This document shows positions 5,997 to 36,333 of a DNA stretch of 64,000 nt, piece by piece; within the stretch, counting starts at the first letter, position 1, and every line of letters begins with the position of its first letter. This DNA is from Deltaproteobacteria bacterium HGW-Deltaproteobacteria-8 (GTDB lineage Bacteria; Desulfobacterota; Desulfovibrionia; Desulfovibrionales; Desulfovibrionaceae), in NCBI GenBank assembly GCA_002840405.1, contig PHAR01000001.1:200384-264383 (forward strand), given 5' to 3'. The notes below the pieces were generated by a model. The model had not been told where the DNA came from. It searched no databases and worked only from the letters and a program-made list of their open reading frames with translations. The position numbers were made by a program, and so were the translations under genes.

Positions 5997-6725
5997 CTAG
6001 AGCCACTTGAGCATGCGTTTCCATGTCCACCGGAGCTTGTCGCGCTCCTCTTCGGAGAGGTTCTTCTGGTACTCGAAGTAGGAGTATTCCGCGCGCTTGC
6101 GCACGTAGTCCTTGAACTCCACCACGTCGGCGAAGTTCTCCAGGATGTAGATGTAGCGGTGCCAGGCGGCCCCGTACTGTCCGGTGCGCCAATAGAAGTC
6201 GGCGATGAAGATCTCATGCTCGGCCAGAATCTTGCGGCACTTGTAGATATGCTCTTTGGCGGCCTTGGAGTACTCCGACCCGGGGAAGGACTCCTCCAGG
6301 CGGTAGAAGATCTCCAGGGCTTCCTTCACGTTGTCCTGACGCAGGTCGATGGTGCGGAACTGCTTGAAATTGCTGAGCGCCATCTGGAAGAGCACATAAG
6401 GAATGAGCTGGTTGCTGGGATGCAGCGTTTCGAATTCCTTGTAGGCCTCCGCAGCTTCTGGATACTTGGCGTCAAAGTAGTAGGCATCGCCCAGGGCGAC
6501 CTCGGCCTTGGGAGTCAGCGGGCTGAAGGGGTAGCGGTCCTTGAGCTTGAGGAAGCTCTCCGCAGCGGTGGAGTAGCGCTTCTCCTTCATGTAGTCCATG
6601 CCGGACTCAAAGAGCTCCTGGGCGGTGTCATCCGCGGGCGGCAGGAAATAATAGTCGATGAGGCCGCAGGAGGACACCAGCGGCAGCAGGAGCAGCATCA
6701 ACAGCGCGAAGGTACGTTTAGACAT
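5997..6725 (-). CDS. bamD: BamD-like outer-membrane assembly lipoprotein
   Basis: BamD is the essential TPR lipoprotein of the BAM complex that inserts beta-barrel proteins into the outer membrane. This 242-residue protein has a signal peptide ending in a lipobox (LVSSC, Cys20) and then TPR-like helical hairpins typical of BamD/ComL, for example KRYSTAAESFLKLKDRYP. Start is ATG at 6725 (MSKRTF), overlapping the trxB stop by 8 bases; an upstream in-frame extension would destroy the signal peptide. It is co-transcribed with trxA-trxB. Confidence 0.9.
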   Translation of the reverse strand: MSKRTFALLMLLLLPLVSSCGLIDYYFLPPADDTAQELFESGMDYMKEKRYSTAAESFLKLKDRYPFSPLTPKAEVALGDAYYFDAKYPEAAEAYKEFETLHPSNQLIPYVLFQMALSNFKQFRTIDLRQDNVKEALEIFYRLEESFPGSEYSKAAKEHIYKCRKILAEHEIFIADFYWRTGQYGAAWHRYIYILENFADVVEFKDYVRKRAEYSYFEYQKNLSEEERDKLRWTWKRMLKWL

Positions 6726-7647
6726 GCAGGTGTTCCAGATAGGCGTGCGCGGCTGTCGCGGCAGTGGCCCCATCGCCCACGGCGGTGGCCACCTGGCGGC
6801 AATTCTTGCTGCGTACGTCGCCTGCGGCGAAGAAGCCCGGCAGGTTGGTGAGCATCTCGCAGTCGGTGATGACGAAACCGTTCTTGTCCCGCTTAAGGGC
6901 AGCAGGCACGAAGGAGGCCGTTGGCTCGAAGCCCACGAAAATAAAGACGCCGTCAACGGGAAGGTCCGTCTTCTCGCCGGTCTTCACGTTATTGAGCTTC
7001 ACGCCGGTGACGCCCTTGAAGGGGTCGCCCACGATCTCCTCAACAACGGTGCTGCGCAGAATCTCCATCTTGGGATGGGTGAAGCACTTGTCCTGGTAGC
7101 ACTTGTTGCCGCGGAAATCGTCGCGGCGGTGGATGAGGTAGAGCTTGTCCACCAGGCGCGAAAGGTACAAGGACTCCTCCAGGGCAGAGTTGCCACCGCC
7201 GATGACCGCCACGGTCTTGCCCTTGAAGAAGTTGCCGTCGCACAGGGCGCAGTAGGAAACACCCTTGCCGGAGTACTTCTCCTCGCCAGGGGTGCCCACG
7301 CGCTTGTAGCGCGCGCCGCTGCACAAAACCACGGTCTTGGCCACTATGGGCTCATCGCCCACAACAATTCGGTAGCCGCCATCCACCTGGGTCATCTCAC
7401 GCACCTCATCACTCATGCGGTCGAGGTCGTAAGTGGCGAGGTGCTCCACGAACTTGTCCACAAGCTCATAGCCCTTGATGGCCGTGGGGAAGCCGGGATA
7501 GTTCTCGATATCCTCGGTCATGAGCACCTGCCCGCCCGGGGAGAGCTTCTCCACCAGGACAGTGCGCACCCCGGACCGGACCAGATAGAGGGCGGCGGTG
7601 ATCCCGGCAGGCCCTCCGCCGATGACGGCGGCATCATATGTCTTCAT
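6718..7647 (-). CDS. trxB: Thioredoxin reductase
   Basis: This flavoenzyme reduces thioredoxin with NAD(P)H. The 309 residues show the N-terminal FAD-binding GGGPAG (10-15), the redox-active pair in CALC (Cys133 and Cys136), the second Rossmann GGGNSALE and the C-terminal FAD motif FFAAGDV. The redox motif is CALC where CATC is most common. The gene lies 4 bases after trxA, and its stop overlaps the bamD start. Together with trxA it forms a complete cytoplasmic thiol-reducing pair. Confidence 0.96.
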   Translation of the reverse strand: MKTYDAAVIGGGPAGITAALYLVRSGVRTVLVEKLSPGGQVLMTEDIENYPGFPTAIKGYELVDKFVEHLATYDLDRMSDEVREMTQVDGGYRIVVGDEPIVAKTVVLCSGARYKRVGTPGEEKYSGKGVSYCALCDGNFFKGKTVAVIGGGNSALEESLYLSRLVDKLYLIHRRDDFRGNKCYQDKCFTHPKMEILRSTVVEEIVGDPFKGVTGVKLNNVKTGEKTDLPVDGVFIFVGFEPTASFVPAALKRDKNGFVITDCEMLTNLPGFFAAGDVRSKNCRQVATAVGDGATAATAAHAYLEHLHV

Positions 7648-7651
7648 CGGG

Positions 7652-7972
7652 TTACAGCGCCTTTTTGGCGATCATGTCCTTGATGCTGCTCTTGGAAACA
7701 GCGCCCGTGGTCTGGTCGACGACTTCGCCGTTCTTGAACAGGATGAGCGTCGGGATGGCGCGGATGCCGAACTTGCTCGGGCTGGCCGAGTTCTCGTCAA
7801 CGTTCATTTTGCAGATCTTGATCTGGCCGGTATATTCCTGCGCCAGTTCGTCAATGATCGGACCCATGGCGCGGCAGGGACCACACCAGGGGGCCCAGAA
7901 ATCGACCAAAACTGGCAGATCGCACTTGAGAACTTCCGTATCAAAATTGCTGTCGGTTACCTGATTGGCCAT
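7652..7972 (-). CDS. trxA: Thioredoxin
   Basis: A small cytoplasmic thiol-disulfide oxidoreductase of 106 residues. The active site WCGPC is at Cys30 and Cys33, and the cis-proline region reads IRAIPTLILF, as in classical thioredoxin 1. Start is ATG at 7972, with AAAGGAGA six bases upstream; an ATG six codons earlier lacks such a site. It heads the trxA-trxB-bamD run. The 114-base gap to tsaD should hold its promoter, but no convincing -35/-10 pair was found. Confidence 0.97.
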   Translation of the reverse strand: MANQVTDSNFDTEVLKCDLPVLVDFWAPWCGPCRAMGPIIDELAQEYTGQIKICKMNVDENSASPSKFGIRAIPTLILFKNGEVVDQTTGAVSKSSIKDMIAKKAL

Positions 7973-8086
7973 GGCCTCTCCTTTGTGCATATTCTAGTAA
8001 GATTTCTGTTGGAACGGCGACCAGGACAATCATCGCGGAAACACCGATCCTCATCCTTTGAAATCTAGTTGTCCCGCCCTGTTCTG

Positions 8087-9238
8087 TCAAGCTGGATGCA
8101 GCGAAGAAGCGCCGGACGGAGCCTCTGCGACGGCTTCACCAACCCCGGCGCGCGACCAGTCCTGAGGTACGGCCCGGCCGCGCGGCACGGATTCCAGGTC
8201 CAGCCCATGACCATACCCGCCGCACAGTGCCTGCCACCCGGCATGGGCTATCATGGCCGCGTTGTCCGTGCACAAGCCCAGGCTTGGCAGCCGCAACTCC
8301 AGCCCTCGGCCCTTGGCCACGCGGGTCATGGCCTGGCGCACGAAACTGTTGGCCGCCACGCCTCCCGCCACCACCAGGCCGCGCAAGCCCGGCTCGCGGT
8401 CCAGGGCGCGCTCGACCTTGATGCGCAGGGTCTCGGCCACAGCCCAGTTGAAGGACGCCGCAACCAGGGCCAGCTCTTCCGGGTGCGCGGTCAAGGCCAG
8501 GGCTCCGCGCCCGCGCAGCTCGTCGGCCGAAGGCATCACCTTCAGCGCCAGGTGCGGACGCTTGCCAAGTTCCTCGGCCACGGCGGTCTTGAGCCCGCTG
8601 AAGCTGAAGTCCAGGTTGTCGTTGGAAATGTATGCGCGCGGAAACAAATGCGTGTCCGGCTCCGCGCCCTGGGCCAGCTCGTCCAGGTAGCGCCCGCCTG
8701 GGTACGGCAGGTTGAGCAGCTTGGCCACCTTGTCAAAGGCCTCGCCCGCCGCGTCGTCCAGGGTGCGGCTGAGCAGCCGGAACTCCGTGGGGCCATTCGG
8801 GCGCCCTGCCATATGATAGAGGTGCGTGTGCCCACCGGACACCAACAGGCCCAGGGCCGGGTAGCGGATCTCGGACTCAAGCCCGGGAGCGAGCAGGTGC
8901 GCGTGCAGGTGGTTCACGCCGATGAGCCGCGCGCCGGTGCCCAGGCACAGGCCCTTGGCAAAGGAGAGCCCCACCAGCAGCGCGCCGAGCAGACCCGGCC
9001 CGCGGGCCACGGCCACGGCGTCGACATCGCCGAGGGTGACCCCGGCCTTGGCCAAAAGCTGGGGCAAAAGCAGGGGCAGCATGCGCAGGTGCTCGCGCGA
9101 GGCTATCTCCGGCACCACGCCGCCGAACACGGCGTGCATGTCGGTCTGCGAGGCCAAGACCTCGGACAAAAGCGCGCCGTCTCGCACCAGGGCGACCCCG
9201 GTCTCGTCGCAAGAGGTCTCGACACCCAGCACAAGCAT
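8087..9238 (-). CDS. tsaD: tRNA N6-adenosine threonylcarbamoyltransferase TsaD
   Basis: TsaD transfers threonylcarbamoyl onto A37 of tRNAs that read ANN codons. The 383-residue protein has the ASKHA-fold opening GVETSCDETG and the metal site NHLHAH (His110 and His114). A conserved GGHTHL stretch and a late CTDNAAMIA segment, with the third metal ligand Asp, follow. It is slightly longer than the usual 340 residues because of a C-terminal tail. It starts at ATG 9238, 8 bases after fbp, so the two are probably co-transcribed. Confidence 0.95.
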   Translation of the reverse strand: MLVLGVETSCDETGVALVRDGALLSEVLASQTDMHAVFGGVVPEIASREHLRMLPLLLPQLLAKAGVTLGDVDAVAVARGPGLLGALLVGLSFAKGLCLGTGARLIGVNHLHAHLLAPGLESEIRYPALGLLVSGGHTHLYHMAGRPNGPTEFRLLSRTLDDAAGEAFDKVAKLLNLPYPGGRYLDELAQGAEPDTHLFPRAYISNDNLDFSFSGLKTAVAEELGKRPHLALKVMPSADELRGRGALALTAHPEELALVAASFNWAVAETLRIKVERALDREPGLRGLVVAGGVAANSFVRQAMTRVAKGRGLELRLPSLGLCTDNAAMIAHAGWQALCGGYGHGLDLESVPRGRAVPQDWSRAGVGEAVAEAPSGASSLHPA

Positions 9239-26102: not shown

Positions 26103-26401
26103 GACAAGCCCTCCGCAGTCGCTCCGAACTCAAGATCCGAGCTCAACCGATGAAGCGAATCTGACAGCAGCATTCAAAAATTTATTCCTCTTACTCCGCC
26201 CCTGGATTATTGTCTAGAGAATTTATAGTACCGAGATTATAACCGTGTCATTGCCCCCCCCTGAACGTAACCATGCACGCGATAAGCAGCGCCTTGTTCC
26301 CCACGAGTTCCTGCAAAAGATCTTGCCTTTGAAGCCAAATCGAGGTTAATACTAAAAAAATACGCCACTTGACACTAAAATCGCATTTCCTGGAGGATTA
26401 C
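26103..26401. other. divergent intergenic region upstream of the MCP gene
   Basis: This 299-base gap is clearly more AT-rich than its surroundings. It contains the ribosome site GGAGG for the MCP. It should hold promoters for both flanking genes. I found no unambiguous -35/-10 pair and no sigma-28 element that I could defend. Confidence 0.5.
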
Positions 26402-28447
26402 ATGAGACGCTTCGGTATTAAGGCAAAATTCCTGATCCCTGCCGTTGCTCTCGTGAGCATCGGCTTTGCGGTGGTCATCTGGCTGAACGCCAACCGGACT
26501 CGCATTGACATGGAAGCCATGCTCAAAGAGAGCATGACCCTTCTGTCCGAATCCATCGCCAAGGATACCGGAGGGGATATCGTAATCACCTACCAGATGC
26601 TTAACGCCTGGAGTGATGACGAGTATGTGCGGGAGGCCATTGTCGGCACTGGCGCCAGCCGCGCTTCGACCCACTTTGCAAACATACTGAGCAAGATGGA
26701 GGGAACCCTCATCCAGTATGTGAACATCTTCGATGTGAAGGGTGATCTGCTGAGCACCTCGGCCAAGGGCGGCGTGACCAAGAAGGTCAATGTCATGGAC
26801 CGCGACTACTTCAAGGCCATCATCGAGGACGGCAAGACACGGGCCATCGGCAAGGCCATTCAAAGCCGAACCACCGGGAAAAAAGTGATCATCCTTTCCC
26901 AAAAGATTACTGCAACGGATGGCACGCTCCTGGGCGTGATCACCGCAGCCATAAGCCTCGACGAACTCACCGCCCAGATCAATGCCATGAAGATCGGCAG
27001 CACCGGCTATGTCGCCATCATGGAGCCCAGCGGCATGACCGTGGCGCATCCGAACAAGGAGCTTCTGCTCAAGGACGACCTGGCCAAGACCGAACTGGGC
27101 AAGCGCGCCCTGGCCGTGGAAAACGTGAGCTACCTGAACTTTGAGGACCATGGCCAGAAGAGCGTGGCCGTGCGCAAGGAAGTGAACACCGGCTGGACCA
27201 TCCTCGTTTTCGCCCCCATTGAAGACATACAGAAAGCGGCCAGGGAGTCCTCGCAGAAGAGCATGCTCCTTGGCGGAGGCGTTGCGCTTGTCCTCGCCTT
27301 CTTCATCAGCTGGCTGGTGAACCGCACAGTGGCCATTCCGGTCTCGCGCTGCATGGGGTTCGCAAGCGCGGTTTCCGAGGGCGACCTGGACCGCAAGCTG
27401 GACTACACCAGCACAGACGAGCTCGGCGTGCTGGCCGATGGGCTCCGCCACATGGTCCAGACCCTCAAGGAAAACATGCAGAAGGTCCAGATCAAAGAGA
27501 CCGAGGCGCTCCAAATGGCCCAGAAGGCCGAGAACGCCTTGAATGAGACCCGCATCGCCCAGGAGAAGGCCAACCTTGCACGCGGGCAGGGCCTCCAGGA
27601 GGCCGCAGGCAAGATGAGCGGCATGGTGCAGGGCGTTGAGGGGGTCTCTGGCGCTCTGGTGCAGCAGGTTGCTGGCATCGAAAACGGCGCGGACACCCAA
27701 AAGGCGCGCACCACGGAAACGGCCACGGCCATGGACGAAATGAACGCCACCATCCTTGAGATCTCGCGCAACGCGTCCACGGCCTCCCTGGACGCCGAGC
27801 ACATGCGTGACACGGCCCAACATGGCAAGGACGTCGTGCAGCGCGTAGTCGAGGCCATCGGCGCGGTCAATGGGCTCTCCTCCAGCACTCGCCAGCAGAT
27901 GCACGAACTGGGAGAGAGCGTGAAGGGCATCGGCAATATCCTGGAAGTCATCAACGACATCGCCGACCAGACGAACCTGCTGGCGCTGAACGCCGCCATC
28001 GAAGCCGCGCGGGCCGGCGATGCGGGCCGGGGTTTCGCCGTGGTGGCCGACGAGGTGCGCAAGCTGGCCGAGAAAACCATGGTCGCCACCAAGGAGGTCG
28101 GCCAGGCCATCAGCTCTGTGCAGAGCGGCTCCAGGCAGAGCATTGAGAACGTGGAGCACTCGAACTCGGCCATTGAGGAGGCGAACAAGCTGGCCGAGGA
28201 CTCCATCGAATCCCTGGAGCAGGTGCTGAAGCTCGCCGCTTCCACGTCTGATCAGATCAGGGCCATCGCCACGGCGGCGGAGGAACAGTCCGGTGCGAGC
28301 GGCGAGATCGACCATGCAGTCAAGGACATCATGAGCATCGCGGGCAGCACCCTCAGCGCCGTGGAGGATTGCCGCAAAACCATCGATAATCTCGCCGGGC
28401 TGTCCGAAGAGCTTCGTCGCATCATGCGCGAGATGGAGAACACCTAG
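26402..28447 (+). CDS. Methyl-accepting chemotaxis protein with dCache sensor
   Basis: A 681-residue inner-membrane chemoreceptor. Transmembrane helix 1 is at about 7-27. A periplasmic double-Cache ligand domain spans about 40-275 ([36 protein letters not shown]). Helix 2 follows (about 285-308), then HAMP, then the signalling domain with the hairpin tip [18 protein letters not shown] and [15 protein letters not shown] 26402 has GGAGG upstream, so the earlier in-frame start at 26369 is not used. The Cache fold suggests a small organic ligand. Its stop overlaps that of the convergent HD-GYP gene. Confidence 0.94.
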
Positions 28448-29541
28448 GAGGGGTCGTCGCTGTACTCCTGCTGGATGGCCTCGATAAGGGAGAACTTTGC
28501 GAGGAAGATGTCAAACAGCCTCGGGTCGAAATGCTTCCCGCGCCCTTGGGTCATGATCTCTATGGACTGCTCGTTGCTCAGCGCCTCCTTGTAGGGGCGC
28601 CTGGTGGTCAGGGCGTCGAAGACATCGGCCACCGCGCAGATGCGCCCGAACAGGGGGATGTCCTCCTCGGCCAGCCCCTTGGGGTAACCTGATCCGTCCC
28701 ACTTCTCGTGGTGCGTGGCGGCGATGACCGCGCCGGCCTCCAGGTACTTGGAGGTGCTGTCGCCCAGGATGGCCGCGCCCATGAGGGTGTGCCGCCGCAT
28801 GATCTCCCATTCCTGCTCGTCCAGCTTGCCTGGCTTGAGCAGAATGGCGTCGGGGATGCCCATCTTGCCGATGTCGTGCATGGGACTGCTGTTCAGGATC
28901 AGGTCCACCGCCTCGTCGTCAAGGCCGGCGTGCTCGGCGATGACCGCGCAGTAGCGGCTCATGCGCATGATGTGGCTGGCCGTGTCCTCGTCCTTGTATT
29001 CCGCTGCGGCGGAAAGCTTGCGAATAGTCTCCATGTGCGCGCGCACGGTGGCCAGGCGCGCATGCTCCAGCTCCACCAAAGCGCCGCGCAAGGCCTTGGT
29101 CTTTTCCGCCACCATCTGCTCCAGGTGCTGCTGGTAGTCCTTGACCTCGTCATGGTAGCCCTTCATGCGCAAAAGCGATGTCATGCGCACGCTGAGCTCC
29201 GTGGAGTCGATGGGCTTGGCCACAAAATCGTTGGCCCCGGCCTCCACAGCGCGCAGGCGGTCCTCCTTGGCCGAGAGCGCCGTAACCATGACAATGGGCA
29301 GATCCGCAAACTTTGGCATCTTGCGGATGGCCTTGACCACCAGAAAGCCATCCATACCAGGCATCATGATGTCCAGGAGCACCAGATCAATGGTCTCGTC
29401 CAGCAGGGCCAGGGCCGCAGGTCCGGAATCCGCCGAGACACATGCCAGCCCGTAGGACTTGAGAAGACCCTCTAGAACCTTGCGATTGATGAGCTCGTCA
29501 TCGACAATGAGGATCTTCTCAGTTTTGCCAGTTTCGTCCAT
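28444..29541 (-). CDS. Response regulator with HD-GYP cyclic-di-GMP phosphodiesterase domain
   Basis: A 365-residue two-domain protein. The receiver domain (about 8-125) has the acidic pair in IVDDE, the phosphorylatable Asp in [10 protein letters not shown] (Asp58) and the conserved Lys in VAKP. A coiled linker (about 130-165) joins the HD-GYP domain (about 170-355) with HDIGK and [11 protein letters not shown] intact, so c-di-GMP hydrolysis is expected. Start is ATG 29541, divergent from the MBL-hemerythrin gene. No partner kinase is adjacent. The last 4 bases overlap the MCP stop within the palindrome CTAG. Confidence 0.93.
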
Positions 29542-29827
29542 GTGTCGTCCGTCAGGGAGGGGGGGATAGATACGTTCGCCTGCAGAGAGCTTATGTTAAT
29601 AAATACCCCGAAGGTGATACTAATTTCAAGTGCTGTTTCCATCGAGATTCTCGATCATTCAATCCTCTGGACAAATACATACAACAACGGTAAGGCCCTG
29701 TGGACATTGCTCCTCGTTCAGCATACGAAATATTTGCCCTTTGAAAAGCCGTGACGGTACACGAAATCATGGCGCAGGCCCTTCCTACGCCTCACGTGGC
29801 CTGCCCGCCGAGGAATCCGGGGAACGC
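29542..29827. other. divergent intergenic region between HD-GYP and MBL-hemerythrin genes
   Basis: This 286-base region is AT-rich near 29595-29700 and GC-rich towards the start at 29828. It should hold two divergent promoters. No strong sigma-70 pair was found. The frame open from 29630 to 29827 lacks a ribosome site and looks non-coding. Confidence 0.45.
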
Positions 29828-32443
29828 ATGGGAAAGATCTCCAAGATCAAGGTCGCCGAGGGGATTTATTACGTAAGCATTCAGGATGCCGGCGTGAACA
29901 TCCTGTGCGGCTGCCCGGCCGACAGCGTCAAGCACCTGATGAAGCGGGGCCTGATCCAGAACGTCGAGGCTGAGGGCGTCAGCTTCGAGACCGGTCCGAA
30001 CGCCATCCTGCTAACTGATGAGCGCATCCAGCAGGGCCGCTTCGCCAACCTTTCCGAATTCCCCATCCTCCAGATCTTCTACCGCCAGGGTCGCATCATC
30101 CCCGGGCATCCGAACAACACCGGCGTCAAGCCCGCCCTCATCGGCTCGCGCAAGCAGGTCGAGGCCCAGATGGAGTACATCTACCGGGGCAACTACGGGC
30201 TGGTCTCCGAAGAGGAGATGATGGCCGCCGGGGTCAGCGAGGCCGAGGCCAAGACCTGGATGCGCCTGAAGCTCAAGTTCGCCTTTGGCAAGATCCGGCG
30301 CATGGAGGAGTACCTCGACCTTGTGGTGGTGGAGAACGAGCCGCAGGAGATACGCAGCCAGGTCTTCGTCAAACGCCTCAAGCTCAACCAGTTTGAGATC
30401 AGCTACGGCAAAGAGTCCGTGCGCGTAGACTTGAACCCGACGCCGCAGACCACCTGCAAGCCATCCTACGTCCTCGGCTTCCACCACATCAAGCGCGACT
30501 ACTTCGCTGTTCTGCATTCCGGCGAGGGCGACGGCTGGGACCCCAACCGTCCGGCCATGGCCAGCATCGTCATCTTCCAGGGCAAGGTCTACCTCATCGA
30601 CGCCGGGCCGAACATCATGCACAGCCTGAACGCCCTGGGCATCAGCATCAACGAGATCTCCGGCATCTTCCACACCCACGCCCACGATGACCATTTCTGC
30701 GGGCTGCCCGCGCTCATGCGCTCCGACCACCGCATCCCCTACTACGCCACAAAGCCTGTGCGGGCCTCGGTGATGAAGAAGCTCGCGGCCCTGGCCATGA
30801 CCGGCGAGGAGGAATTCAACCACTACTTTGAATTCCACGACCTCGAGCTGGGCCAATGGAACGACATCGACACGCTGGAGGTGAAGCCGGTGTTCTCGCC
30901 GCACCCGGTGGAGACCACGGTGATGCTCTTCCGCACCCTGGACCGCAACGGCTACCGCACCTATGCCCACTTCGCGGACATCGCCAGCCTGGGCCTGCTC
31001 CGGAAGATGATCACCGCTGACCCGGAAGCTCCGGGGCTTTCCCAGGAGCTCTATGACGAGGTCTGCGCCAACTACCTGGAGCCCGTGGACCTGAAGAAGC
31101 TCGACATCGGCGGCGGCATGATCCACGGCGACGCCGAGGACTTCGCCAGCGACAAGTCCGGCAAGATCCTGCTGGCCCACACGGCCCTGCCGCTTACCAA
31201 CAGACAGAAGGAGATCGGCTCAGGTGCGCCCTTCGGCATGGTCGACGTGCTCATCCCGGCCCACCAGGACTACATCCGCTCCTATGCCTACCACTACCTC
31301 TCCTCCTACTTCCCCACGGTTTCTGACAGCAAGCTGCGCGTCCTGCTCAACTGCCCGGTGGTCAAGATCAACCCCGAAACCCTCATTCTCAAGGCCGGGC
31401 GCAAGGCCGAATGCGTCCACCTCATCCTGACCGGGCAGGTCGAGGTGATCCGGACCAAAACCGGCGTTTACAGCACGCTGACCACTGGCGGCCTTTTGGG
31501 CGAGTATACGGCGCTCATGGGCAAGGCCTCCCTGGAAACCTACCGCGCGGCGAATTTCGTCCAGGCACTGCGCATCCCGCTGGACCTCTACGCCACGTTC
31601 GTAAAGAACAACGCCCTGTTCGACGAGATGATCCGCCTGCAGGACATCCGCAGCTTCCTGTACACCAGCAGCCTCTTCGGCGACGGCCTGACCTGCACAC
31701 GCCAGAACGCCATTGCCGAAGCCGTCAGCATTCACGCCAAAGCAAGCGGCGAAACCCTCACCCACTGTAAAGAGCCCATGCTCTGTCTGGTCAAATCCGG
31801 CAAGATCGAGCTGCTTGTGGGCGACAGGCTCATCGAAACCCTCGGCCCCGGCGAATTCTTCAACGAGAGCACAGTGCTTTTCGAAACGCCCTGTTTGTTC
31901 AAGGCCAGGGCCGCCAAGGACTCCACCCTCTACATCATCCCAGGCGCGGTGCTGGCCGAGATCCCCATCGTGCGCTGGAAGCTTTTGGAATTATACGAGA
32001 AGCGCCTGGACAAGACGATCAACCAGGGCAACGACCAAGGCTTCTTCCAATGGCAGGACGAGTACGCTATCAATGTCGAGCGCATCGACGCCCAGCACAT
32101 GGAGCTCTACTCCATCGCCAAGATGCTCTATGCGGCACTATTCAACGGCCAGGAGGCGAACGACCCGGCGCTGCTGTTTCCCCGGCTCATCAGCCACACC
32201 AGGCTGCACTTCCAGACAGAGAACCAGCTCATGCTCGAAACCGCCTACCCCGGCTTTGCCGTGCATGCCAAGAAGCACGAGCAGATATTGCGAGCCTTGG
32301 ACGGATTCTCCGCAGGCTACTCGGCCCGGCGCAAGCCCCCGAAAAAGGAAGTGGGCATCTTCCTCAAGGACTGGGTGATGACGCATATCCTCACCGAGGA
32401 CAGGCGCCTGGGAACATATCTGAACATGAAAAAGCCCCGCTAG
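29828..32443 (+). CDS. Metallo-beta-lactamase / double cNMP-binding / hemerythrin fusion protein
   Basis: An 871-residue multidomain protein, probably cytoplasmic since no signal peptide is present. Residues 1-220 are of unknown fold. A metallo-beta-lactamase-fold domain follows (about 225-490) with the metal motif THAHDDH (283-289) and later ligand candidates SPHP, FADIAS and LIPAHQD. Two Crp-like cyclic-nucleotide-binding beta rolls span about 500-595 and 628-725. The C-terminal bacteriohemerythrin domain (about 738-871) keeps all seven di-iron ligands: His757, His794, Glu798, His813, His817, His853, Asp858. That set predicts reversible O2 binding or sensing. Start ATG 29828 follows GGGGA. 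Function is unknown; see findings. Confidence 0.9.
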   Translation: MGKISKIKVAEGIYYVSIQDAGVNILCGCPADSVKHLMKRGLIQNVEAEGVSFETGPNAILLTDERIQQGRFANLSEFPILQIFYRQGRIIPGHPNNTGVKPALIGSRKQVEAQMEYIYRGNYGLVSEEEMMAAGVSEAEAKTWMRLKLKFAFGKIRRMEEYLDLVVVENEPQEIRSQVFVKRLKLNQFEISYGKESVRVDLNPTPQTTCKPSYVLGFHHIKRDYFAVLHSGEGDGWDPNRPAMASIVIFQGKVYLIDAGPNIMHSLNALGISINEISGIFHTHAHDDHFCGLPALMRSDHRIPYYATKPVRASVMKKLAALAMTGEEEFNHYFEFHDLELGQWNDIDTLEVKPVFSPHPVETTVMLFRTLDRNGYRTYAHFADIASLGLLRKMITADPEAPGLSQELYDEVCANYLEPVDLKKLDIGGGMIHGDAEDFASDKSGKILLAHTALPLTNRQKEIGSGAPFGMVDVLIPAHQDYIRSYAYHYLSSYFPTVSDSKLRVLLNCPVVKINPETLILKAGRKAECVHLILTGQVEVIRTKTGVYSTLTTGGLLGEYTALMGKASLETYRAANFVQALRIPLDLYATFVKNNALFDEMIRLQDIRSFLYTSSLFGDGLTCTRQNAIAEAVSIHAKASGETLTHCKEPMLCLVKSGKIELLVGDRLIETLGPGEFFNESTVLFETPCLFKARAAKDSTLYIIPGAVLAEIPIVRWKLLELYEKRLDKTINQGNDQGFFQWQDEYAINVERIDAQHMELYSIAKMLYAALFNGQEANDPALLFPRLISHTRLHFQTENQLMLETAYPGFAVHAKKHEQILRALDGFSAGYSARRKPPKKEVGIFLKDWVMTHILTEDRRLGTYLNMKKPR

Positions 32444-32629
32444 CCGCCCACTGTCATTGCAGTCCCTCCTTGCCTTCTGCCCGCCCGTAGGGCTCTCAAA
32501 CATGGCTTCATACAATTTTGTCATAGGGACGAACATGCAATGCTGTTCATTTTACAATCCTGTAACCTTTTACCAGCCTCAGGCACCTCGCCATTCAAGA
32601 ATACATGTCATTTAAGCAGGATGCGCACT

Positions 32630-32645
32630 TGGCCTGATTCTTGAT
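32630..32645 (+). promoter_or_regulatory. possible sigma-54 promoter element for glnN
   Basis: TGGCCTGATTCTTGAT resembles the consensus TGGCACG-N4-TTGCA: the -24 GG is kept, but the -12 GC is GA. Sigma-54 control of nitrogen genes is common, which is why it is noted. The mismatch keeps confidence low. Confidence 0.25.
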
Positions 32646-32705
32646 ACCTATGAATCCAACACTTCAGGGCAGGCGAGTTTTCCCGTCTGTTCGTAACGGC
32701 CAGGG

Positions 32706-32735
32706 TTGATTCGGATAGGGCAGTTGATCTAGATT
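32706..32735 (+). promoter_or_regulatory. possible sigma-70 promoter for glnN
   Basis: TTGATT (32706-32711) and TAGATT (32730-32735) are 18 bases apart, about 90 bases before the glnN ATG. Both hexamers deviate from consensus by two or fewer bases in the key positions. Confidence 0.35.
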
Positions 32736-32827
32736 GCGGGCGAAGGCAAGCCCGGATTGGATTCAGGGCCATATTCCACAATACTGTCAAGGAACACCTA
32801 ACGCCACACTTACAGGAGTCAGCCACC

Positions 32828-35008
32828 ATGAGCGGAATCCAGGCACGTCTGAACGCCATCTCGGCCGTCATCAATTACAAACCTTCCCACGCCCCCCTCA
32901 ACTACCACGACACCAAGCCCACCGACATCTTCGGGGCCAATGTCTTCAGCGACAAGGTGATGAAAGAGCGCCTGCCCAAGCCCGTGTACAAGTCCCTGAA
33001 GAAGACCATCGAGCTGGGCGAAAAGCTGGACCCCTCCATTTCAGACGTCGTGGCCAACACCATGAAGGACTGGGCCATCGAAAAGGGCGCCACCCACTTC
33101 ACCCACGTCTTCTACCCGCTCACCGGCATGACCGCAGAGAAGCACGACGCCTTCCTCGTGCCCGACGGCAAGGGCGGCGCCATCGCCGAGTTCAGCGGCA
33201 AGCTGCTGATTCAGGGCGAACCCGACGCCTCCAGCTTCCCTTCCGGCGGCCTGCGCTCCACCTTCGAGGCCCGTGGCTACACCGCCTGGGACGTCACCAG
33301 CCCGGCCTACATCCTGGAGAATCCCAACGGCACCTTCCTGTGCATCCCCACCGCGTTTCTCTCCTGGACCGGCGAGGCCCTGGACAAAAAGACCCCGCTT
33401 TTGCGCTCCAACCAGGCCCTGAACAAGCAGGCCAAGCGCGTGCTCAAGCTCTTCGGCGTTGAGACAAAGCTGCCCGTCACCTCCTTCGCCGGCGCCGAGC
33501 AGGAATACTTTCTCATTGACCGCAACTTCGTGTTCTCCCGTCCCGACCTGCTCATCGCGGGCCGCACGCTCTTCGGCGCCAAATCCGCCAAGGGCCAGGA
33601 GTTTGAGGACCAGTACTTCGGCGTGGTGCCCCGCCGCGTGCTTTCCTTCATGATGGAGGCCGAACGCGAGCTGTTCAAACTCGGCGTGCCCGTCAAGACC
33701 CGCCACAACGAGGTGGCTCCGAGCCAGTTCGAAATCGCGCCCATCTTCGAGATCGGCAACCTTGCCACCGACCACAACCAGATGATCATGACCACCCTGC
33801 GCAGCGTGGCCAAGCGCTATGGCATGGTCTGCCTGCTGCACGAGAAGCCCTTTGCCGGCATCAACGGCTCGGGCAAGCACCTGAACTACTCCCTGGGCAA
33901 TGCCGACCTGGGCAGCCTGTACGATCCGGGCGACACCCCCCACGACAACGCGCAGTTCCTGGTCTTCTGCGCCGCAGCCATCCGCGCCCTGCACAAATAT
34001 GGCGCCATGCTGCGCGCCACTGTGGCCACCGCCTCCAACGACCACCGCCTGGGCGCCAACGAGGCCCCCCCGGCCATCATGTCCATGTACCTGGGCGAGC
34101 AGTTGACCGACGTCTTCGAGCAGATCAAGAAGGGCAAGGTCAACAACTCCAAGAGCAAGGGCATCATGAACATCGGCGTGGACACCCTGCCGCCGCTGCC
34201 CATGGATCCGGGCGACCGCAACCGCACCAGCCCCTTCGCCTTCACCGGCAACCGCTTCGAGTTCCGCGCTGTCGGCTCCGCACAGTCCATCGCCGGATCC
34301 CTGGTGGCACTGAACACCATGATGTCCGAGTCGCTTGACTACATCGCCACAGAGCTTGAGAAGGCCACCAAGGGCGACAGCAAGAAGCTCAACGCCGCGG
34401 TGCAGACCGTGCTCCAGAAGATCATCAAGGAGCACGACGCCATCGTCTTCAACGGCGACGGCTACTCCGACGCCTGGCACAAGGAAGCGGCCAAGCGCGG
34501 CCTGCCCAACCTGAAGACCACTCCCGATGCCCTGCCCGTGCTGACCACCAAGCCCGTGATCGATCTGTTCACCAAGTACGGCGTCCTCTCCGAGGCCGAA
34601 CTGCGCAGCCGCGAAGAGATCTACCTTGAGATGTACGCCAAGACCCTGAAGACCGAGGCCGCCCTGATGGTGCGCATGGCCAGCACCATCATCTTCCCGG
34701 CCGCCATGCGCTACCAGAGCGAACTCGCCGCCGCCTGCGCCAACCTGAAGGCCATCGGCAAGGACTTCAAGATGTCCACGCTGGAGGACATCACCGCCAA
34801 ACTGCGCTCCATGCAGACCTCCGTGGCCAAGCTGGAGAAGCTCTTGAGCGTCGAGGGCAAGAATTCCCACGCCGAGGCCAAGCACCTCTGCGACAAGGTC
34901 CTGCCCGCCATGAACGAGCTCCGCAGCTTCGCCGACGCCCTCGAAGTGGTTGTGGCCGACGACCTGTGGTCCCTGCCCAGCTACCAGGAGATGCTGTTCA
35001 TCCGCTAA
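32828..35008 (+). CDS. glnN: Type III glutamine synthetase
   Basis: GlnN condenses glutamate and ammonia to glutamine, as a large-subunit dodecamer distinct from GlnA. The 726-residue protein matches the GSIII length. It has the family's THVFYPLTG segment, AEQEYFLID for metal-bound glutamate, [14 protein letters not shown], and the ATP site [15 protein letters not shown]. The long C-terminal helical region typical of GSIII is present. AGGAG precedes ATG 32828. It ends in a strong terminator. It appears monocistronic. Confidence 0.95.
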
Positions 35009-35117: not shown

Positions 35118-35777
35118 TCAGCGGTCAGCGGGAAAAGGAAGGTCCAGGGGCTCAAAGTTCTGCCAGCCCGGCCCGTCGAAATGCCACCATTCCGTGGCCA
35201 GGGGCTCAAAGCCCTGCGCCTGCATGGCGCGTTCAAGGTGCTGGCTGTTGCGGCGGGCCTCGGGAGAGGCGGCGGCAGAGTCCCGGTGGGCCTTGTCCGT
35301 GAAGTCGTCGTATCCAGTGGGCATGACCAGCTCCTGGCCGTGCGCGTCCACCAGGGTCACGTCAACAGCGGCGCCCCGGTTGTGCCTGGAGCTTTTGACA
35401 ATGACGCCATCCTTGCGCACAGGCAGCCCGACGTAGCGCTCGTCGGGCATGATGCGCCAGAAGGCCTCCTGCACGGAAAAGGGACGGTAGCAGTCATAGA
35501 TCTTGAGCCCCAAGCCCTGGCCGCGAAGCCCCTTCTGAACCTCAAGCAGGCGTTTAGCCACATCCGCGCGCAGGTAGCAGCGCGCCGCCGGGTACACGCG
35601 CTTGCCCGTGAAGTTGTTGTCCGTGGCGTAGCGGATGTCGAGCACGAGGCTTGCGTCCTGGCTCGTCGGCTCCACCAGACCCGCAGCCGCAAGATTTCGT
35701 GCTGCCGGGTCGCCTGCCAGGGCGACGGCGCACAGCATGTGCAGCACAAGCAGAAACAAGACGATCCTGCGCAACAT
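35118..35777 (-). CDS. ddpX: D-alanyl-D-alanine dipeptidase, VanX/DdpX family
   Basis: A 219-residue zinc dipeptidase of family M15D that hydrolyses D-Ala-D-Ala. It has a signal peptide (about 1-21), so it acts in the periplasm, probably in cell-wall turnover and D-Ala recovery. The active-site motifs SSRHNRGAAVD (zinc His and Asp) and EWWHFD (catalytic Glu and zinc His) are intact, as is the YDCYRP segment. AAGGGGAAAG precedes ATG 35777. No vanH or vanA is adjacent, so I infer no link to vancomycin resistance. Confidence 0.88.
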   Translation of the reverse strand: MLRRIVLFLLVLHMLCAVALAGDPAARNLAAAGLVEPTSQDASLVLDIRYATDNNFTGKRVYPAARCYLRADVAKRLLEVQKGLRGQGLGLKIYDCYRPFSVQEAFWRIMPDERYVGLPVRKDGVIVKSSRHNRGAAVDVTLVDAHGQELVMPTGYDDFTDKAHRDSAAASPEARRNSQHLERAMQAQGFEPLATEWWHFDGPGWQNFEPLDLPFPADR

Positions 35778-35861: not shown

Positions 35862-36257
35862 CTACTTGTTCTTGCCGCGCTTCTTCCAGAGCTCCATTTC
35901 CTTCATCTTCTTGCGGCGGTCGCGCTGCAGGGACTTGCAGACAAGGGGCATGCCCTTCTTGTACCCGAACTTCTCGCGGTATTCGGGCGGGGTCAGGCCG
36001 TGACTTGCAAGGTGCTTCTTGGTGATGATCTTGAAGGCCTTGCCGCACGAGCAGCACGTGATGGTTTTCTCGCGTACGCTCTTGGTGGGATCAATGGAGG
36101 ATTCCTCCTCCTCAGCCTGTACAGGAGGCTCTCCCGCGATGGCCTGAATGCCACGCACGAGCTTTTTGACCATGGAGGTGATCTCATCCTCGGTCATGGT
36201 CCTCACGCTGGCCTGCGCTTTGACGATCTCAAGGGCTTCCTTCAAATAGTCATCCAT
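35862..36257 (-). CDS. MucR/Ros-family zinc-finger transcriptional regulator
   Basis: A 131-residue DNA-binding regulator. The C-terminal half carries the Ros/MucR fold: zinc ligands in CCSC and HLASH, then GLTPPEYREKFGYKKGMPLV, and a very basic tail (RDRRKKMKEM). The N-terminal half is helical and acidic. I chose ATG 36257 because AAGGAG lies six bases upstream; the TTG two codons earlier abuts it. Targets are unknown; MucR proteins often act broadly on surface and motility genes. Its own terminator makes it monocistronic. Confidence 0.88.
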   Translation of the reverse strand: MDDYLKEALEIVKAQASVRTMTEDEITSMVKKLVRGIQAIAGEPPVQAEEEESSIDPTKSVREKTITCCSCGKAFKIITKKHLASHGLTPPEYREKFGYKKGMPLVCKSLQRDRRKKMKEMELWKKRGKNK

Positions 36258-36333
36258 CTTCAACTCCTTGGCGTTTGACGGAACATCTTCATGGCTTCAG
36301 CCTATTGCATGCATGTGCTTACTTACCAATAGC

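Follow-up and report, generated by a model that had tools for sequence, protein, structure and literature searches.

The gene studied here occupies positions 29828-32443 of the forward (+) strand in a 64,000-nucleotide stretch of DNA (the window) from Deltaproteobacteria bacterium HGW-Deltaproteobacteria-8, and its open reading frame is translated into 871 amino acids followed by a stop codon. An initial annotation, made from the letters alone, had claimed that this single protein joins a metallo-β-lactamase (MBL) fold, two cyclic nucleoside monophosphate (cNMP) domains and a hemerythrin. Pfam searches bore this out, each domain scoring above its cut-off: cNMP_binding (PF00027) reached 70.7 bits (cut-off 27.5) over two stretches of the protein, Lactamase_B_2 38.4 bits (27), Lactamase_B 36.6 bits (22.7) and Hemerythrin 36.5 bits (25.3). 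The start at 29828 is common to relatives, M1 being almost invariant in 13 aligned rows. A full-length AlphaFold model with a 69-row alignment as input gave a predicted local distance difference test score (pLDDT) of 90.6 and a predicted template modelling score of 0.90, and both the Crp-like cyclic nucleotide-binding (CNB) fold and the hemerythrin fold, whose absence the annotation had named as grounds for its own rejection, were found in the predicted structure. The motif THAHDDH at residues 283-289 and the seven hemerythrin ligands H757, H794, E798, H813, H817, H853 and D858 also stood where the annotation had placed them. The features of the gene are the following:

29828..32443, + strand: whole gene, 871 aa, in the order pseudo-MBL, MBL, CNB1, CNB2, hemerythrin (translation, Pfam, predicted structure)
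29828..30457, + strand: predicted degenerate, metal-less MBL-fold domain, residues 1-210 (comparison of predicted structures)
30056..30058, + strand: E77, part of the conserved EFP motif and a candidate for donation into the second MBL domain's active site (compare Apyc1 E74/E75)
30485..31267, + strand: active-type MBL domain, class II phosphodiesterase-like, residues 220-480 (Pfam, structure, profile search of the PDB)
30677..30694, + strand: HxHxDH metal motif H284-H289, conserved in 81/81
30902..30904, + strand: H359, counterpart of Apyc1 H155 in the alignment and by analogy a metal ligand
30977..30979, + strand: D384, counterpart of Apyc1 D179 in the alignment and by analogy a metal ligand
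31124..31126, + strand: H433, aligned with Apyc1 H208
31178..31180, + strand: H451, counterpart of Apyc1 H230 in the alignment and by analogy a metal ligand
31325..31612, + strand: Crp-like (CNB) domain 1, residues 500-595 (Pfam, model, HMMER alignment)
31529..31531, + strand: S568, position of the phosphate-binding Arg in CNB1, Arg in 0/81
31661..31963, + strand: Crp-like (CNB) domain 2, residues 612-712 (Pfam, model, HMMER alignment)
31892..31894, + strand: C689, position of the phosphate-binding Arg in CNB2, Arg in 0/81
32042..32425, + strand: bacteriohemerythrin with seven di-iron ligands, residues 739-866 (NF033749, DcrH fold, ligand counts)

Relatives were collected with two peptide patterns in one genome per species (GTDB r220), which returned 280 stretches encoding a relative, a number that the true total may exceed. 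The best 80 were kept, and counts over 81 refer to these best 80 of the 280 stretches (each locus carrying an L number) together with the window protein. Over residues 1-491 the window protein and the best 80 relatives shared 57-91% identity. Five more distant relatives (L129-L133) came from 5 of the 297 genomes of a phylum draw and belong to other families of the phylum; they align over the core formed by the N-terminal domain, the MBL domain and both CNB domains, and all five are without hemerythrin. Pfam found two CNB stretches in one of them, while its MBL score (22.9 bits) fell just short of the cut-off of 27.

The active-type and the predicted N-terminal MBL-fold domains

Eight residues of the second MBL domain (H284, H286, D288, H289, H359, D384, H451 and H433) were invariant in all 81 proteins. 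The first four pair with Apyc1 H64, H66, D68 and H69 in the alignment; the Apyc1 counterparts of the others (H155, D179, H230 and H208) we take, from the RNase Z fold, to be ligands or catalyst, and the catalytic role of H433 is likewise presumed from RNase Z. Structure comparison placed Apyc1 (7u2s) first among the neighbours of this domain (Z 21.6, 221 residues, root mean square deviation (rmsd) 2.8), followed by PqqB (Z 20.9), YhfI (20.7), GMP- and AMP-bound Brucella proteins (20.1 and 19.8), RNase Z (19.8) and, lower, yeast PDE1 (18.0), Z values less than 1 apart being counted as ties. A profile of the domain searched against the PDB also found Apyc1 first (E 6.6e-7), and an hhalign comparison with four phage Apyc1 proteins gave E 3.3e-10 (a single comparison). 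All in all, the active MBL domain is nearest to the class II phosphodiesterases and is not flavodiiron-like.

This outcome separates the two models that the annotation had offered for the domain. MBL-type cyclic-nucleotide phosphodiesterases stood up well as a model, with Apyc1, YhfI, RNase Z and yeast PDE1 among the structural neighbours. The other model, flavodiiron O2 reductases, would make the protein an O2/NO reductase to which hemerythrin supplies O2. An MBL fold and a di-iron hemerythrin do share one chain, and the flavodiiron protein 1vme and the di-iron enzyme CmlA appeared among the weaker neighbours of the N-terminal domain (Z 8.8), but the active domain has HxHxDH with a phosphodiesterase-type ligand set rather than the flavodiiron ligand pattern, the N-terminal domain has no metal motif, and Pfam gave no flavodoxin match even with E values as high as 1 allowed. 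The motif and the domain content led us to reject this reading as highly improbable.

The approximately 220 N-terminal residues had been described as matching nothing, a description that the predicted structure overturned. Modelled alone (residues 1-220, pLDDT 88.2), they resembled a degenerate MBL domain whose neighbours in the VIA comparison were RNase Z 1y44 (Z 11.8, 151 residues, rmsd 3.2), Apyc1 7t28 (Z 11.6, 156 residues, rmsd 3.4) and ELAC2 (Z 10.6); every one of the 50 VIA matches listed was, judged by its title or known fold, an MBL-fold protein. Foldseek also ranked Apyc1 first (E 1.6e-4, TM-score 0.39), with three matches at E 0.001 or below, and human ELAC2 compared with the full model spanned residues 1-477 (380 aligned, Z 18.5, rmsd 4.2). 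HxHxDH is missing from this domain. On the predicted models, the N-terminal domain and the second domain most likely form a pair of one dead and one active MBL unit, as in long RNase Z.

Catalysis by Apyc1 requires E74 and Y112 of the opposing protomer (PMC9117128). Because the corresponding positions of the active MBL domain are P294 and A323, and because the N-terminal domain keeps an EFP motif, the latter could serve as a dead-twin partner that supplies the missing side of the site. E77 of this motif was kept in 81/81 proteins and EFP also in 5/5 distant relatives, and the stretch E77-F78-P79 matches 'GGLEEV' of Apyc1 by secondary-structure order. E77 would then sit next to the second MBL domain's active site, and such complementary loss between the two MBL copies would be expected of a pseudo-dimer built in one chain.

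The Crp-like and hemerythrin domains across the family

HMMER alignments to PKG set the register of the phosphate-binding Arg, which falls on S568 in CNB1 and on C689 in CNB2. The Glu of the phosphate-binding cassette (PBC) was kept in 79/81 proteins in CNB1 and in 72/81 in CNB2. In the regulatory subunit of PKA, that Arg is described as neutralising the cAMP phosphate (PMC10959531). Since it is missing from both CNB domains in 81/81 proteins, plain gating by cAMP or cGMP appears doubtful, and the annotation's proposal that a cNMP gates the MBL domain is weakened. Each of the five distant relatives has Arg in at least one CNB domain; as these proteins keep the same core, the ancestor may have been an MBL enzyme that responded to cNMPs, and the ligand may have changed in the family of the window protein.

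A related explanation is that cyclic nucleotides remain ligands of the CNB domains through an unusual mode of binding, so that the protein would be a cNMP-stimulated phosphodiesterase like Dictyostelium GbpA/GbpB with an extra O2 input. The MBL-CNB-CNB order described for GbpA/GbpB, the retained PBC Glu and the Arg of the distant members agree with it, but the loss of the residue that meets the phosphate, at both sites in every one of the 81 proteins, makes it unlikely.

Three other candidates were discarded. R573, nearly invariant, was considered as the PBC Arg and ruled out because the HMMER alignments place the Arg at S568. In trypanosomes, loss of the Arg together with a Glu at PBC+2 is described as accompanying nucleoside binding (PMC10959531); a pocket of this type was set aside since the PBC+2 Glu is not conserved here, position 561 being Ser in 35/69 rows and Thr in 12/69. 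A PADLOC match to PycC (20.9 bits) covers CNB1 alone, and a defence system was rejected on that ground.

The C-terminal domain matched NCBIfam bacteriohemerythrin NF033749 (90.8 bits, cut-off 84) and, in structure, DcrH 3waq (Z 19.0, 134 residues, rmsd 2.1). A hemerythrin profile made from the relatives, with the window protein left out, scored 139.3 bits on the window C-terminus and at best 8.7 bits on 2000 shuffles, so the match is not due to chance. The complete ligand set claimed by the annotation was confirmed in the window protein, and mutated ligands in homologues, which it had named as a sign against it, were few: all seven were present in 50 of the 56 hemerythrin-bearing proteins (window counted), and of the six that deviate, five do so at H813.

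Matches to the window protein in BLAST ran from residue 6 or earlier through residue 721 or later in 80/80 relatives; all of them therefore keep the N-terminal domain, the MBL domain and the two CNB domains. Scored by tail length, and confirmed with the hemerythrin profile in 55 relatives, hemerythrin was present in 56/81 proteins (window included); 24/81 stop soon past the last CNB helix, and one carries another domain (L077, at 6001-8679 of a SAR324-labelled sequence), a Zn_protease-type domain (PF05618) that replaces hemerythrin. On a quick tree of residues 1-722, which has Shimodaira-Hasegawa-like approximate likelihood ratio support only and several long branches, the hemerythrin label changed at least nine times, four of the changes being forced by starred branches, so that gain or loss of hemerythrin has apparently occurred repeatedly. 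Both kinds of protein occur together in three Paramagnetospirillum genomes and one Rhodospirillaceae metagenome-assembled genome (MAG), as the paralogue pairs L060/L100, L064/L103, L068/L108 and L058/L110. The MAG ER2bin7 (L044, L059, L065) has three copies, two with hemerythrin and one without, and Humidesulfovibrio sp. Ess09-03 (L034, L043) has two hemerythrin-bearing paralogues, which share 83% and 55% identity with the window protein.

These distributions bear on an alternative role for hemerythrin, in which it would not be a sensor for the MBL domain but would take up O2 or peroxide locally, or form a tail that buffers metal and so protects the metal site or supplies it. Hemerythrin is missing in 24/81 proteins, a Zn_protease-type domain takes its place in L077, and the genome of the window has further hemerythrin-like loci, all of which fit a sink or buffer. 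We nevertheless consider this role unlikely: the hemerythrin fusions VcBhr-DGC and Bhr-HD-GYP are described as acting as sensors (PMC8846402), and in the predicted model a short, low-confidence linker joins hemerythrin to the last CNB helix, a position that might allow an input to take effect.

As judged from sequence matches, the family is patchy and widely spread. In the window genome's own family the gene was found in 18/199 genomes searched (own counted), and among the same-genus genomes shown in 12/15, the three without it being 81-83% complete. A phylum-wide draw gave a match in 5/395 genomes (own counted), one of which is the distant relative L033. By record title the nearest relatives include Humidesulfovibrio, followed by other Desulfobacterota, by Magnetospirillum and its kin and by Magnetococcales; a few family MAGs are labelled Planctomycetota, Lentisphaerae, Nitrospinia, Campylobacterota, Firmicutes and others (labels as given).

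Proposed mechanism and gene surroundings

The explanation that we consider best, and hold tentatively at somewhat short of probable, is that of an asymmetric class II MBL phosphodiesterase with a dead-twin partner, an altered CNB hinge and an O2 or redox input through hemerythrin. The two-metal site of the second MBL domain would hydrolyse the phosphodiester of a nucleotide, the most likely substrate being a second messenger of the cyclic nucleotide type. Having lost its metals, the first MBL domain would act as a built-in partner protomer that closes the active site and probably donates E77. Behind this catalytic pair, the two Crp-like domains would form an allosteric hinge whose pocket is without the usual phosphate contact, so that its ligand would either not be ordinary cAMP or cGMP or be bound differently. 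Finally, the C-terminal di-iron hemerythrin would provide the O2 or redox input that alters activity. The analysis itself shows the predicted folds, the domain order, the conservation of the metal-site residues, a first MBL domain devoid of a metal motif, the missing Arg, a complete hemerythrin site and conservation across many genomes, whereas we infer the substrate, the direction of regulation and the contact between E77 and the active site; gating by O2 would be the part played by hemerythrin.

Several observations weigh against this explanation. For the N-terminal domain, hhalign detected no significant sequence homology either with the active MBL domain or with Apyc1, a profile search of the PDB was empty at E 1, and the Foldseek TM-scores were low (0.33-0.43 in the top 25 rows); the dead-twin proposal thus depends on predicted models as compared by VIA. 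The residue of Apyc1 that corresponds to E77 may be either E74 or E75, and Apyc1 Y112 is without a counterpart conserved across the distant relatives. On the catalytic side, PqqB, which is not a phosphodiesterase, lies within 1 Z of Apyc1, and the Apyc1 family model (PF23023) gave 20.2 bits, below its curated cut-off of 50. Loss of the phosphate-binding Arg at both CNB sites argues against simple cNMP gating, hemerythrin is missing from 24/81 proteins and is thus not needed for the core function, and the gene neighbourhoods are mostly not conserved.

The neighbours were surveyed at 51 chosen loci of the 80, with 43 upstream and 49 downstream neighbour proteins, those in the relatives' loci being gene-caller predictions and not annotation. 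In the window, the upstream side of the gene holds two features:

28444..29541, − strand: divergent neighbour, response regulator with REC and HD domains (HD-GYP type; Pfam; kept beside close orthologues)
26396-28447, + strand: dCache chemoreceptor gene, whose 3′ end meets the 3′ end of the REC-HD gene

A gene similar to that of the dCache chemoreceptor occupies the same place in L034 and L035. Downstream of the window gene lies a type III glutamine synthetase gene, and the REC-HD and glutamine synthetase genes flank close orthologues too. A REC domain was found in 8/43 upstream neighbours; as three of the four upstream HD proteins come from one close orthologue group (L034, L040, L042), these eight cases are not independent. 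A conserved operon was not found, no Pfam family occurring in more than three of the 49 downstream neighbours. A scan of 29400-32900 for promoters and terminators gave sites no more numerous than in shuffles, and a plasmid collection searched at E 1e-30 returned zero matches, which leaves plasmid carriage unsupported. Also in the window are genes for a D-Ala-D-Ala dipeptidase (PF01427), a VanX-like peptidase, at 35118-35777 (− strand) and for a ROS/MucR-type regulator (PF05443) at 35862-36263 (− strand).

Class III cyclase genes stand at most two genes away from a family member at 6/80 loci from three lineages (L100, L103, L108 and L110, which form one clade, L107 and L057), Pfam confirming the cyclase for L100, L107 and L057; this proximity, as a bare count, is no more than suggestive. 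The window gene has no adjoining cyclase, and its genome contains five class III cyclase (PF00211) matches above cut-off. At L100 (178-9166, Paramagnetospirillum caucaseum), one strand encodes in turn a CHASE2-adenylate cyclase, a TPR-CHAT protein, the hemerythrin-less member, a small protein and a free-standing hemerythrin, the last thus lying two genes downstream of the member.

The cyclase genes are relevant to another explanation, in which the MBL enzyme would be a phosphodiesterase or hydrolase for a substrate other than a cyclic nucleotide (RNA, a phosphonate or phosphate ester, or another metabolite) and the Crp-like domains would sense a metabolite. Pairing of a dead with an active MBL domain is the plan of long-form RNase Z, with ELAC2 matching across both, PqqB and PhnP-type proteins lie within 2 Z of Apyc1, and loss of the CNB Arg removes a direct link to cNMPs. 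On the other hand, RNase Z models fall far below their cut-off (TIGR02651, 45 bits against 292.95), Apyc1 came first in the profile search, the five distant relatives keep the canonical CNB Arg, and cyclases are encoded near some members. We therefore rate a non-cyclic-nucleotide substrate as possible but rather unlikely.

Carried to the whole family, the asymmetric phosphodiesterase would be a widespread bacterial dead/active MBL enzyme whose inputs were rewired from cNMPs to another CNB ligand and to O2 or redox state through hemerythrin, a generalisation that we find conceivable and, at present, improbable. If it held, oxygen would set the breakdown of a second messenger in anaerobes and microaerophiles, and an O2-responsive phosphodiesterase would be added to the connections already described between hemerythrin and second messengers. 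The MBL plus two-CNB plan of Dictyostelium would have a bacterial setting, with CNB domains for a different ligand, and the cGMP/cAMP-stimulated phosphodiesterases of Dictyostelium would have bacterial equivalents in the distant relatives whose CNB sites are intact. In Paramagnetospirillum, where paralogues with and without hemerythrin coexist and the one without is near an adenylate cyclase gene, the role of hemerythrin would be directly testable.

Comparison with known systems

The annotation knew of no characterised protein with this architecture. That did not hold for the MBL plus two-CNB part, since Dictyostelium GbpA/GbpB are described as having an MBL domain followed by two CNB domains and as being activated by cGMP/cAMP (PMC11988041); for hemerythrin fused to MBL and CNB domains, searches of an open-licence library aimed at this architecture turned up no description. 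The GbpA/GbpB review contains the word hemerythrin zero times (PMC11988041), and neither lactamase nor cyclic nucleotide occurs as a term in the main text of a hemerythrin survey (PMC4919030), while a figure of that survey counts 56 hemerythrin architectures, among which the present one may be. In the available text of a Magnetospirillum transcriptome study, a hemerythrin gene and a CNB gene are named separately, not a protein of the window type (PMC5459824).

GbpA/GbpB thus resemble the window protein in the order of the catalytic MBL domain and the two CNB domains, a likeness in described domain order. They differ in being eukaryotic and activated by cGMP/cAMP, whereas the family of the window protein is without the phosphate-binding Arg, the Arg criterion being that of canonical CNB domains and not of GbpA/GbpB residues. 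The five distant relatives (L129-L133), with the canonical CNB Arg and no hemerythrin, are possible bacterial counterparts of GbpA/GbpB. Trypanosomatid PKA regulatory subunits, which were among the best Foldseek matches, share the tandem CNB domains and, as described, a replaced phosphate-binding Arg, but their nucleoside-binding Glu at PBC+2 is not conserved in the window family.

With long-form RNase Z (ELAC2), whose first half is inactive, the window protein shares, by predicted structure, an inactive and an active MBL domain in a single chain, and differs in scoring far below the RNase Z family cut-offs; to our knowledge, ELAC2 is without CNB and hemerythrin domains. Its likeness to DcrH, in which the partner of hemerythrin is a chemoreceptor, lies in a covalently joined hemerythrin with all seven ligands and in the DcrH fold match. 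The same covalent arrangement links it to VcBhr-DGC and Bhr-HD-GYP, although the partner of hemerythrin is described there as a GGDEF or HD-GYP domain and not as MBL plus CNB domains (PMC8846402). Apyc1 and YhfI, which cleave cyclic mononucleotides (PMC9117128), resemble it in the active MBL fold, the ligand set and the extra His. The window protein falls below the Apyc1 family cut-off, and whereas Apyc1 is described as a homodimer of a single MBL domain (PMC9117128), here an active copy, a probable dead copy and putative sensors are carried by one chain.

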